From: Candidatus Zambryskibacteria bacterium RIFCSPLOWO2_02_FULL_39_26
GTDB taxonomy: Bacteria; Patescibacteriota; Minisyncoccia; Phycocordibacterales; DATDWN01
NCBI GenBank assembly: GCA_001825395.1
Contig: MHWN01000019.1
Location: 1 to 50,198 of the forward strand
DNA length: 50,198 nt
Direction of reading: 5' to 3'
Shown: one piece after another, positions 1 to 34,733 of the stretch
Position numbering within the stretch: position 1 is the stretch's first letter
Layout of the letters: each line of letters opens with the position of its first letter
Notes under the pieces: generated by a model
Database searches by the model: none
What the model saw: only the letters and a program-made list of their open reading frames with translations
What the model was told of the DNA's origin: nothing
Made by a program: the position numbers and the translations under genes

Positions 1-35
1 ACTGACTCCTTACAGGAGCTGTACGCCTTTTGGAT

Positions 36-2681: not shown

Positions 2682-3404
2682 TTATCTTAATGTAAACTGT
2701 CGCAACGAATATGTTTCTTTTGGATTATGGTAGGAATCTATCATTTTTTCCAGAAGTTTTTGTTTTTCAATGTTCGGCCAGAATCGTGATGTGTGCGTAA
2801 TATGCACACCATCAATAAATCCGACTTTTTGATAAAACTTTTTCATATTTTCTTTGTCTCTTATTTTTACTTTACCATCCCCTGCATCACAGGCTGTAAT
2901 ACCTAGTGATTGGAGGAGAGTGATATATTCTTTTCTGAGCTTTGGATGAGCACAAGCGAGATAGACTCCACGAATCAGCCATTTAGCTTCATCTTTTTTA
3001 GTCTTTCTCCGTGCTACATACAAACTCACTCCACCATCACAACTAAATGCTGATTGCAAGAATTCTTTTACGACGTTATGTCGAATAAGTTCTTCAATTG
3101 GTAACTTAGTTTTAGGAAGCTCGCCATTTTTATACCGAAGTGTTCGGAATGTTCCAAACTTTTCAGTAAATAATTGACCTGCTTCTTTTGAATCAACGAT
3201 CGCTCGATGGAGTCCGTCAGAAGTCATGTCCAAACGGACACGATTTTCTGGTAATGCAAATTCTTGCATTATAGACTCTTTGAAAATCGAAACAAGTCGC
3301 TGTGATTTATTGGAGAAGTAGAATCGCCAGCTGTTTCTGCCTTTCGGCGACAAACAACCGTCGGTAAAAATAAGTCCAAGTAATGTTGCAGTAGTTTTGT
3401 TCAT
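2682..3404 (-). CDS. LAGLIDADG homing endonuclease in intron S788
   Basis: This 240-aa protein has LAGLIDADG motifs LLGLIFTDGCLS (residues 8-19) and FLQSAFSCDGGVS (about 114-126). Its gene starts just after the P7/P3 strand and its stop codon is part of the P8 region, so it fills the P8 loop. No Shine-Dalgarno and no clear TATAAT box are seen at this start, unlike the endonuclease genes of S1498, S516 and S328. Function is inferred from family membership and location. Confidence 0.88.
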   Translation of the reverse strand: MNKTTATLLGLIFTDGCLSPKGRNSWRFYFSNKSQRLVSIFKESIMQEFALPENRVRLDMTSDGLHRAIVDSKEAGQLFTEKFGTFRTLRYKNGELPKTKLPIEELIRHNVVKEFLQSAFSCDGGVSLYVARRKTKKDEAKWLIRGVYLACAHPKLRKEYITLLQSLGITACDAGDGKVKIRDKENMKKFYQKVGFIDGVHITHTSRFWPNIEKQKLLEKMIDSYHNPKETYSLRQFTLR

Positions 3405-13110: not shown

Positions 13111-13797
13111 TTATTTATTAAAGGTCACCCAATCAAAAATCTCTTTATCGAAAATTTCTTTGTCTAAAAAATATTGTGGAAAAACCTTTAGATTTAAAAT
13201 CCTGCCTCTTAATCTTTTGATTTTCCTAAAATCTAAATAACTGCTCCACTCATATTTATTTAAAAATTCAATGCTTTTTTTAACATTTCGTATCTCCTTT
13301 TCTTTCCATAAAGGATCTATTAATTTTAAAGGGTTTAGATGTATATATGAAAAAATGTATTTTGATTGAACATCATTTTTTGTATGAACTGCTTTAAATG
13401 GACCTTCAAAAAGTTTTCCTGTTCTTTTATATTTTTTATTAAAGTACATTGAATATGATGTGCAAAGTTTTTGAACGAACACGCTGATTGAATTCGTCTC
13501 CTCTCCTAGGTCCCCTAGGCGACGCCTAGGGGAAATGTATAGATGAAAATGATTGGGCATTAAAACCCATGCTCCGATTGAAACAAGTTCTTCCCCTCTA
13601 TTGAAATCGAAGGCATCAATTTTTTTACCAACAATATCATCCCTAAAATTTATACTTTTTTCTGAATTGCACAAATATAATAATTTTGTAAATCTGTCTC
13701 TATCTAGATCATCGGTAAAAATATTTTGCTTGCTGTTCCCACGATTATAAATATGGTAATACTCCCCTTCAACTAAAGCTTCTTTTCTATATGTCAT
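13111..13797 (-). CDS. REP-associated tyrosine transposase (RAYT, Y1 HUH)
   Basis: RAYTs are single-copy relatives of IS200/IS605 TnpA that cut single-stranded REP hairpins. Seen in this 228-aa protein: EYYHIYNRGNSKQNIF near residue 13, the HUH motif VLMPNHFHL near residue 78, a Tyr in the helix FVQKLCTSYSMYF (about 110-122), and the RAYT hallmarks RTGKLFEGPFKA and YIHLNPLK. Copies of one palindrome lie upstream, downstream and inside the gene; the inner copy encodes SPRRRLGDLG between the HUH motif and the Tyr helix without breaking the frame. TATAAT lies seven bases before the ATG, with no Shine-Dalgarno. Confidence 0.92.
   Translation of the reverse strand: MTYRKEALVEGEYYHIYNRGNSKQNIFTDDLDRDRFTKLLYLCNSEKSINFRDDIVGKKIDAFDFNRGEELVSIGAWVLMPNHFHLYISPRRRLGDLGEETNSISVFVQKLCTSYSMYFNKKYKRTGKLFEGPFKAVHTKNDVQSKYIFSYIHLNPLKLIDPLWKEKEIRNVKKSIEFLNKYEWSSYLDFRKIKRLRGRILNLKVFPQYFLDKEIFDKEIFDWVTFNK
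13511..13533. repeat. REP palindrome family A, copy 2 (inside RAYT)
   Basis: TCCCCTAGGC-GAC-GCCTAGGGGA lies in frame within the RAYT coding sequence. Confidence 0.9.
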
Positions 13798-19069: not shown

Positions 19070-19282
19070 ATGATGGCTGGTTATATCACCAGACTTTGGT
19101 ACAAAGACGGTACTCTTGATCGAGTTGAGGTACAGGTCGGTAGGGGGTACGAGAAATTCTGGAGCAATACCGTGAGATTCAGAAATACGGATCCACTGGC
19201 GGTCACAAGGGTGGGACATGGCAGTTATGTAGAGGTCCATCGTTTTTGGTTTTTTGGATCACTCATAACTGTCCTGAACTAG
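19070..19282 (+). CDS. Small basic beta-rich protein, SD class
   Basis: The product is 70 aa (MMAGYITRLWYKDGTLDRVEV...), rich in aromatic and charged residues with alternating polarity typical of strands. No signal peptide or family is recognised. AGAGGTGG lies just before two adjacent ATGs (19070, 19073). A TTGACA promoter precedes it and a strong terminator follows 22 bp after the stop. It is a free-standing cassette between the VWA and 5S genes, opposite in strand to both. Confidence 0.7.
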   Translation: MMAGYITRLWYKDGTLDRVEVQVGRGYEKFWSNTVRFRNTDPLAVTRVGHGSYVEVHRFWFFGSLITVLN

Positions 19283-19303
19283 CTCTGAAAAAACCCAACA
19301 AAC

Positions 19304-19332
19304 AAGGCGCGACATTTCTGTCGCGCCTTTTG
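19304..19332 (+). terminator. Terminator of the 19070 gene
   Basis: AGGCGCGACA-TTTC-TGTCGCGCCT followed by TTTTGATTT. Confidence 0.9.
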
Positions 19333-19373
19333 ATTTGTCTAAAATCGAATCACCTGTTCTGGCGCCTACCTAT

Positions 19374-19404
19374 CCCAGTAGTAGATGCTTCGCATCACTA
19401 CGGG
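19374..19404. repeat. Hairpin family B, copy 1
   Basis: Pairs CCCAGTAGTAGATGC with GCATCACTACGGG across a TTC loop (one-base asymmetry). Inserted in the outer 5S and followed by CATG. Confidence 0.85.
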
Positions 19405-19431
19405 ACATGCTTTCCCACGAGTGAGTACTTG

Positions 19432-19462
19432 CCCCGTAGCGAGCTTCGCTCTGCTACTAGGG
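19432..19462. repeat. Hairpin family B, copy 2
   Basis: Pairs CCCCGTAGCGAGC with GCTCTGCTACTAGGG; inserted in the opposite orientation to copy 1. Confidence 0.85.
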
Positions 19463-19485
19463 TCATCGGCACTATTGGGCTTAAC

Positions 19486-19670
19486 CCCAGTAGTAGAAAT
19501 TTGAAAAGTTAAATAATTTGTTCTGGCGGCTAGCTACTTTCCCCGTGAGAGTATCATCGCCTCAACCGAGCTTAACTTCCGTGTTCGGAATGAGAACGGG
19601 TGTGACCTCGGCGATAAGCCACCAAAACAAATTATTCAACTTTATTTACTTTTCAAATTTCACTACAGGG
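19486..19670. repeat. Hairpin family B, copy 3, carrying 5S in its loop
   Basis: The left end CCCAGTAGTAG (19486) and right end CACTACAGGG (to 19670) match the family. The stem continues through AAATTTGAAAAGT/ACTTTTCAAATTT and AAATAATTTGTT/AACAAATTATT and encloses the intact 5S gene. Confidence 0.75.
19522..19625 (-). rRNA. 5S rRNA, intact copy
   Basis: The minus strand reads TGGTGGCTTATCGCCGAGG, ACACCCGTTCTCATTCCGAA, CACGGAAGTTAAGCTCGG and GGGGAAAGTAGCTAGCCGCCA. Helix I (TGGTGGCT/AGCCGCCA) closes properly, and flanking AAATAATTTGTT/AACAAATTATT forms a processing stem. It lies about 400 bp downstream of 23S on the same strand. Confidence 0.93.
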
Positions 19671-19694
19671 CATGCTTCCGTGTCGGAATGCCTG

Positions 19695-19725
19695 GCCCGT
19701 ACCGAGCTATGCTCTGGTACTGGGC
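19695..19725. repeat. Hairpin family B, copy 4
   Basis: Pairs GCCCGTACCGAGC with GCTCTGGTACTGGGC. It carries compensating changes relative to copy 5 (GTACC/GGTAC instead of GTAGT/ACTAC). Confidence 0.85.
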
Positions 19726-19739
19726 AGAACAGGTGCCTG

Positions 19740-19770
19740 TCCCGTAGTCAGCTTTGCTGTACTACTGGGA
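19740..19770. repeat. Hairpin family B, copy 5
   Basis: Pairs TCCCGTAGTCAGC with GCTGTACTACTGGGA. Copies 4 and 5 are both preceded by CCTG. Confidence 0.85.
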
Positions 19771-19793
19771 TGACCACCACGTTAAATCACCAA

Positions 19794-20015
19794 CACAAAG
19801 AATTCAATCTATTTTGTATATTGTATCTAATTGTAAAAGTAACGTTCATGGCTGTATTATGATAATTAAAAATAAATTTTTAATTGTATTCATTCCATGT
19901 AACAGGATAAAGCTCACCCACGAATAATACAAACAGATACTAATCTTTCGAATAAATTTAGTAATTCATTCGTTAAAATTCGTACATTCGTAGATTGGTG
20001 GGCTGGTTCTCAAAT
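19794..20015. other. 23S-5S spacer, no gene
   Basis: The spacer is A+T-rich and holds ATTCGTTAAAATTCGTACATTCGTAG repeats (family E, also at 44795) and the 3' part of the 23S processing stem (CAAATTTCCTAATAG). I see no ORF. Confidence 0.6.
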
Positions 20016-28708: not shown

Positions 28709-28975
28709 AAATTTAAAAACCACATGACTGCAAAATATCACCACTGATACTTTGTAATCATTTACCCCAGTAGTAGAGCAAGGCTCACTACAGGGTTTCA
28801 CTTTATCCTGTTACATAAAATTAATATGTAACACTTTTACTTACTTTTACCTACTCCATCTACACTCGAAAAGACCCCAGTCTTTTATTAAAGTGCGATG
28901 GTATGAAGTTTTCAAATAACTTTCTTTTCTGAAATTTCACTTTTCACCCATCCGAAGAATTGGGGTTGCGGAATC
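28709..28975 (-). other. 23S leader region, no gene
   Basis: Contains family B hairpin copy 6 (28766-28795), a hairpin GTTACATA/TATGTAAC near 28813-28835, and a weak promoter-like TTGAAA-18-TTAATA further up. I see no ORF. Confidence 0.55.
28766..28795. repeat. Hairpin family B, copy 6
   Basis: CCCAGTAGTAGAGC-AAG-GCTCACTACAGGG, about 60 bp upstream of the 23S 5' end. Confidence 0.8.
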
Positions 28976-34595: not shown

Positions 34596-34733
34596 CCCAG
34601 TAGTAGAAAATTAATTTATAATATATATCTTTATTACTTTATATAGTAACTAATTCTTCATATTTGTTCAAATCTGATATATGTAATTTTCACTACGGGA
34701 TAGCCCTGTAGTGAGCTCTGCTCTACTACTGGG
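34596..34733. repeat. Hairpin family B, copies 7 and 8
   Basis: Copy 7 has its left end CCCAGTAGTAG at 34596 and right end CACTACGGG at 34691-34699, with about 85 bp of A+T-rich cargo in the loop. Copy 8 (34704-34733) is an ordinary hairpin CCCTGTAGTGAGC-TCT-GCTCTACTACTGGG. Copy 7 shows, like the 5S copy, that the two ends can be separated by cargo. Confidence 0.75.

Follow-up and report, generated by a model that had tools for sequence, protein, structure and literature searches.

The window, by which we mean the whole stretch of 50,198 nucleotides that was analysed, comes from a 611-kb draft assembly (G000) of 28 contigs that is 92.6% complete. On its minus strand the 16S and 23S rRNA genes are broken by group I introns, as identified with Rfam, and the same strand carries an intact 5S rRNA gene. 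This gene covers the full RF00001 model at 78.2 bits, against a gathering score of 38 bits, and is the sole Rfam 5S match both in the region and in the whole 611-kb assembly, no second 5S being found elsewhere in the genome by the same search. All 24 of the base pairs tested are kept in it and none is broken, and it scored 106.5 bits with an HMM built from the 5S sequences of 29 relatives. A linked protein led to close relatives, and these belong to the Parcubacteria ('Candidatus Zambryskibacteria').

A second 5S sequence surrounds this gene. It is present as six ordered pieces on the same strand (19355-19793, minus), split by four hairpins of 35-37 nt and by one of 190 nt that holds the intact gene in its loop; the positions are listed in Table 1. 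An earlier note on this DNA had claimed that a different 5S lies around the intact one, that the loop of the third hairpin contains the intact gene and that the outer pieces retain their order and strand, and in each of these respects it was correct; its span of 19360-19793 was right at the upper end, but the lower end lies 5 bases further out. When the outer pieces were spliced together they gave a 5S of 107 nt that scored 93.1 bits with the HMM of the 29 relatives, which was used here in place of the Rfam covariance model, whereas the best match in the unspliced sequence reached 15 bits. For comparison, the intact 5S sequences of the relatives gave leave-one-out scores of 80-108 bits. When the intact 5S was aligned with free gaps against the sequence on either side of it, the score was 88.7, the maximum over 100 shuffles being 47.

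Table 1. Features of the 5S locus and further family-B hairpins in the window (coordinates are those of the window; ^ marks the point of entry).
Feature	Coordinates	Strand	Basis or remark
Intact inner 5S rRNA gene	19521-19626	-	Rfam RF00001, 78.2 bits, model 1-120
Outer 5S piece 1 (5S positions 1-24)	19771-19793	-	splice boundaries
Outer 5S piece 2 (25-34)	19726-19735	-	splice boundaries
Outer 5S piece 3 (35-50; one base deleted in CCGAAC)	19675-19690	-	splice boundaries
Outer 5S piece 4 (51-73)	19463-19484	-	junction of CTACTACTGGGG and TTAAGCCC common to G008
Outer 5S piece 5 (74-90)	19410-19427	-	splice boundaries
Outer 5S piece 6 (91-106)	19355-19372	-	splice boundaries
B1, hairpin + CAGG, at GGTCA^CACC	19736-19770	-	family-B repeat
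B2, hairpin + CAGG, at TTCT^CATTCC	19691-19725	-	L295 and L105 occupied at same site
B3, 190-nt hairpin cassette, CATG, inner 5S in loop	19485-19674	-	boundaries, fold
B3 arm CCCTGTAGTGAAATTTGAAAAG..., after CATG	19627-19674	-	boundaries
B3 arm ...CTTTTCAAATTTCTACTACTGGGG	19485-19520	-	boundaries
B4, hairpin + CAAG, at GATGA^TACT	19428-19462	-	L012 and L067: same site and tag
B5, CATG + hairpin, at GAAAG^TAG	19373-19409	-	L012: same site, tag and GATGC/GCATC tip
Family-B hairpin directly upstream of 23S gene	28766-28795	+	
Family-B double element: short hairpin + CTAT + long hairpin, 103-nt span, gene-free	34596-34733	-	

The five insertions are indeed family-B hairpins, as had been proposed, but the exact unit is not the hairpin alone. 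It consists of a hairpin together with one CANG tetranucleotide on a fixed side (35, 35, 190, 35 and 37 nt), and excision of both restores the 5S at all five sites, with no target-site duplication. The arms are polar, with CCCAGTAGTA on one side and CCC(T)GTAGTG on the other, the tetranucleotide always standing on the second side. B3 is a long form, and in its predicted fold the arms pass into the flanking stem of the 5S. Family B also occurs on several other contigs of the genome and at the two further places in the window given in Table 1, where the four bases vary. It resembles a mobile repeat made of small hairpins. At one locus of a relative (L172, about 3100-3166; G002:C15) one family-B hairpin is nested within another.

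The same long arms (GTAGTGAA.../...TTCTACTACTGG) enclose a GIY-YIG nuclease gene elsewhere, in four copies from three genomes. One is on contig C28 of the window's own genome (L220 1035-1344, equivalent to G000:C28:10963-11272), and the assembly has no other PF01541 match; the three in relatives (G008 C15, G008 C2 and G010 C5) are each 315 nt long. No GIY-YIG gene is present in B3, the loop of which holds the 5S, the genome's gene-bearing copy being that on C28. Because these arms elsewhere surround the nuclease gene, B3 looks like a family-B shell in which the cargo is a 5S gene in place of the nuclease gene, and the nuclease may move or target family-B elements, the 5S cassette included. Elements of about 315 nt that consist of family-B arms and a GIY-YIG gene alone (L220, L250, L262, L267) are possibly a minimal mobile element. 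Inverted repeats are not a general feature of the flanks of GIY-YIG genes, as they were clear only for genes within family-B arms, and such arms are missing from most of the other GIY-YIG genes that were examined.

We also considered whether family B is moved by RAYT-type Y1 transposases. Family B shares with REP/RAYT systems short, imperfect, polar hairpins, a tetranucleotide on one side and the lack of a target duplication; however, none of the RAYT genes examined in the window's genome has family-B arms, and the surroundings of the Y1 genes examined there were free of such arms out to about 1 kb. The five RAYT-type genes (window 13111-13797, and contigs C5, C9, C12 and C28 of G000) are each flanked by a hairpin of their own, for instance CCCCTAGGCGACGCCTAGGGG near the window copy, and since each has its own, different hairpin we rejected a RAYT as the mover in this genome. 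Mitochondrial double-hairpin elements are likewise small, paired hairpins that are scattered and found also in rRNA genes; they differ from family B in sequence and in host.

The outer 5S has lost one base from the conserved CCGAAC loop (loop C), and 5 of its 24 tested pairs are broken, 19 being kept; furthermore, its counterparts in several relatives lack whole ends. For these reasons it is best read from its sequence as a relic and not as a second working 5S. The earlier note had left a choice between a 5S pseudogene that served as a landing pad and an outer 5S that is still made with hairpin extensions. The former agrees better with a relic, although it is incomplete as an account, since the arms elsewhere enclose a GIY-YIG gene and the sites recur across families. 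The latter fits less well with the deletion and the broken pairs. That the outer copy is transcribed and functional, with its hairpin extensions kept, its pieces assembled or its product acting as a separate RNA, is favoured by the preserved piece order and high similarity, by the recurrence of the same insertion positions in distant families, and by the existence of natural 5S expansions (PMC7530397, PMC7812874) and of helix IV hairpin extensions in the only 5S matches listed for G194 and G095. Against the lesions in loop C and in the helices, the missing ends in relatives and the presence of an intact 5S, we consider it very improbable. The insertions do not belong to two familiar classes: an rRNA intervening sequence was rejected because the gene that is interrupted is a relic with an intact copy next to it, and a group I intron was rejected as Rfam gave no such match within 19200-20000.

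A comparison with relatives, which the earlier note had suggested, revealed the same arrangement elsewhere. In G008 (GW2011_GWA2_40_14, an independent assembly) the arm meets the outer 5S at the same junction, CTACTACTGGGG followed by TTAAGCCC, and the counterpart of the window's inner 5S has in its turn a newer, intact 5S within it, giving three levels. Because this junction is common to both, we conclude from the two sequences that the insertion is older than the split from G008 and is not an assembly error. An artefact might otherwise be suspected in a draft genome with repeats, but an independent assembly has the same junction and many others have analogous loci, and we give the idea almost no credence.

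Nested loci number at least seven and occur in different families. In G010 the outer 5S, in which other repeats are present as well, is interrupted after GTTAA and before CGATGG by an intact 5S, and clear split outer 5S sequences around an intact gene were likewise found at L126, L105, L318, L130, L278 and L012; the free-gap scores of these seven were 70-184, against shuffle maxima of 42-58. Those outside the genus include L126 (Kaiserbacteria MFLU01000020), L105 (Nomurabacteria MFUG01000018) and L130 (Nomurabacteria MFVU01000036). The nesting, which the earlier note had called very unusual, is indeed out of the ordinary, but this genome is not alone in having it. Among 140 distinct Parcubacteria 5S loci, about 15 had a split or second 5S that scored far above shuffles, although some of these are downstream copies and not nests; the sample was weighted to the window's own family, such that the fraction is not an order-wide frequency. 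We did not count G002, which was not above its shuffles, or G004, which was barely above the shuffle maximum, as clear nests; in both, 5S pieces can be made out by eye on the downstream side. L328 failed the free-gap test. When the inserts of the relatives were searched with Rfam, only rRNA, tRNA and group I introns were returned at usable scores.

The cassettes are of two kinds. Those of the first kind have family-B arms, and no target is lost where they enter, at 5S positions 50/51 or 42/43. Entry at 50/51 is seen in the window, and the right-hand joint also in G008, L315 and L067; entry at 42/43 is seen at L105 and L318, and the cassettes at L012 and L295 appear to resemble these. Arms with CNTG + CCC and ends with GGGG are found in the cassettes of the window, L105 and L318, with a similar left arm in L222 and similar right arms in L315, L067 and L073. 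The second kind (G010, L126, L130) has no family-B arms, and about 12 nt of the target near 55-67 are replaced. Since the cassettes lie at different positions, and some have matching arms, the sequences argue for repeated events rather than for one inherited accident.

Three of the short hairpins recur as well. Counterparts at the same 5S position and with the same tetranucleotide are present in other families for B2 (L295), B4 (L012, L067) and B5 (L012), L113 has a short family-B hairpin without a 5S at the B3 site, and neighbouring 5S sites are taken by other repeat families (P, Q, R). Such recurrence could reflect either site- or structure-specific insertion or the passing around of an outer 5S already laden with hairpins. 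As the insertion sites recur across families, the outer 5S looks like a preferred target and not merely tolerated junk.

The duplex flanking the inner gene in B3 has a predicted energy of -38 kcal/mol. The flanking stems of nested 5S genes have a median of -31.9 kcal/mol against -19.8 kcal/mol at the other loci (p = 7e-6), a difference that is partly circular where the arms are part of the cassette. With regard to ancestry, the outer 5S is nearest to the present 5S of G008 (87%) and is 80% identical to the inner 5S, which ranks 26th of 143. The inner 5S is nearest to that of L073, from another family (91%), and the trailing arm of L073 is also the best match. This hints at import of the inner gene, 5S being too short for a firm claim of transfer. 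At L315 inner and outer copies have a 21-nt trailer in common, and at L278 the inner is nearly identical to the outer. As these are near copies of one another, the two loci point to local copying, which seems also to happen.

5S rRNA is usually regarded as essential, strongly conserved and vertically inherited. Our preferred explanation, to which we assign a probability of about 60%, is that a 5S-bearing hairpin cassette landed in the resident 5S gene and took over its role, the old gene then decaying and gathering hairpins. A long family-B hairpin with a complete 5S and its processing stem in the loop would have entered the resident gene at 50/51. With an essential single-copy gene broken, an insertion survives only if the loss is repaired; here the cassette would supply a working copy in the same transcript or operon and for that reason would not be lethal. 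With arms of this length the inner 5S could fold on its own and, if it is expressed in this way, be cut from the precursor through cleavage of the stem. The outer gene, freed of function, would subsequently have decayed and taken up the short hairpins B1, B2, B4 and B5 at preferred sites. Given that the gene-bearing form of family B encodes a GIY-YIG nuclease, the 5S cassette would be the same shell with another cargo.

Several observations stand against this explanation. No 5S cassette was seen outside 5S loci, and free movement as a unit would predict some; B3 has no nuclease gene, and cutting of the 5S by the nuclease is only presumed; and G010, L126 and L130 have lost about 12 nt of target and have no family-B arms. 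A search of viral contigs with two exact patterns, the cassette junction and the 5S core, gave no match. More tentatively, and at somewhat less than even odds, we propose that in Parcubacteria mobile hairpin cassettes with a whole working 5S home to fixed positions within the resident gene, which they break and replace in one step, and that repeated rounds produce Russian-doll loci in which a single-copy essential rRNA gene is overwritten, possibly by a foreign allele.

An explanation that would dispense with a mobile cassette is that the resident 5S and its stem were copied into the gene itself by template switching during replication or repair of hairpin-rich rDNA, the family-B arms being already in the target. 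It would account for the confinement of the copies to the 5S locus, for the common trailer in L315 and for the nearly identical copies in L278 and G009. However, the inner and outer 5S of the window are only 80% identical, the outer being nearer to the 5S of another species, and in several families the joints at 50/51 and 42/43 between family-B arms are exact and without loss, as is more readily expected of an element than of random switching; for the window we therefore regard local copying as unlikely. A tandem array could also give the mere appearance of nesting, if three 5S copies stood in a row and hairpins filled the outer two, each of these being truncated from the end that faces the other. 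Simple partial copies do lie up- or downstream in the relatives G012, G009, G015, G014 and L019, and 5S remnants with insertions beside a normal 5S are known from other bacteria (PMC7812874). In the window, L105 and L318, though, the left piece stops exactly one base before the right piece starts and matching hairpin arms flank the joints, and we think a tandem origin improbable.

Degenerate 5S-like copies with large insertions beside normal 5S genes (RNA 2021, PMC7812874) and expanded 5S rRNA, such as that of Halococcus morrhuae (PMC7530397), are known, and the former resemble the window in having degenerate, insertion-bearing copies near a normal 5S. In the available portions of these two papers, however, the remnants lie downstream of the normal genes, and none is described with a normal 5S inside it or tied to a nuclease-bearing repeat family. 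In open-access text we found no earlier description of a 5S relic with a complete 5S inside it; what appears new from the sequence is this nesting, and its repetition in relatives suggests a hitherto undescribed in-place overwriting of an essential gene. A survey of the CPR, the same radiation, found rRNA genes heavily invaded and GIY-YIG insertions that are not introns, as here, but an insertion of at least 100 bp in 0 of 645 5S genes (PMC11270868). Split relics would probably escape the covariance-model search of that survey; rRNA surveys miss such relics in that model searches score the intact copy only. The nearest logic, by analogy, may be that of the mitochondrial mobile ORF hybrids (Allomyces atp6; Glomus atp6, atp9, cox2 and nad3; PMC3630166), in which an element enters an essential gene, brings a replacement part and leaves the native part as an unused relic. 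Those elements carry part of a protein-coding gene and their own endonuclease gene, whereas here a whole rRNA gene is carried in a cassette without a nuclease gene.

On our preferred explanation, the common ancestor of two species would have had its single-copy 5S overwritten from within at least once, one of the two would have gone through a further such event, and comparable events would have recurred throughout the order. Complete replacement would, if the cassettes are mobile, be a third route by which an insertion in an essential gene survives, the others being self-splicing and restoration of a tRNA gene end. The GIY-YIG insertions in CPR rRNA that are not introns are moreover linked to a defined hairpin family, and the locus offers a direct test of rRNA gene swapping between lineages.

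Other structured elements were also noted. A repeat of the form CTTACAGNNNCTGTACACCT...AAGGTCTTGCG followed by a hairpin and CTCAC occurs order-wide, with 1-26 copies in 26 of 31 genomes, and is almost absent from a reversed-pattern control; it has no Rfam match and is often within 5S relics (L157-L164, L185 and about 30 more loci; for example, window 9-28). Repeats Q (GCAAGTCCGGAGCGCGACGGCGCGAGGAGGGG...) and R (CCGCCTCCGTAAAGCTTTGGCGGATTGCGATTTGT...) interrupt 5S relics at recurring positions (L158 2229-2316, L162, L163, L318, L126). Finally, at L221 (G194:C74:250-402) and L222 (G095:C19:37005-37145), each the only 5S match listed for its genome, helix IV of the 5S is lengthened by a long hairpin insertion, and the two score 75-76 bits.
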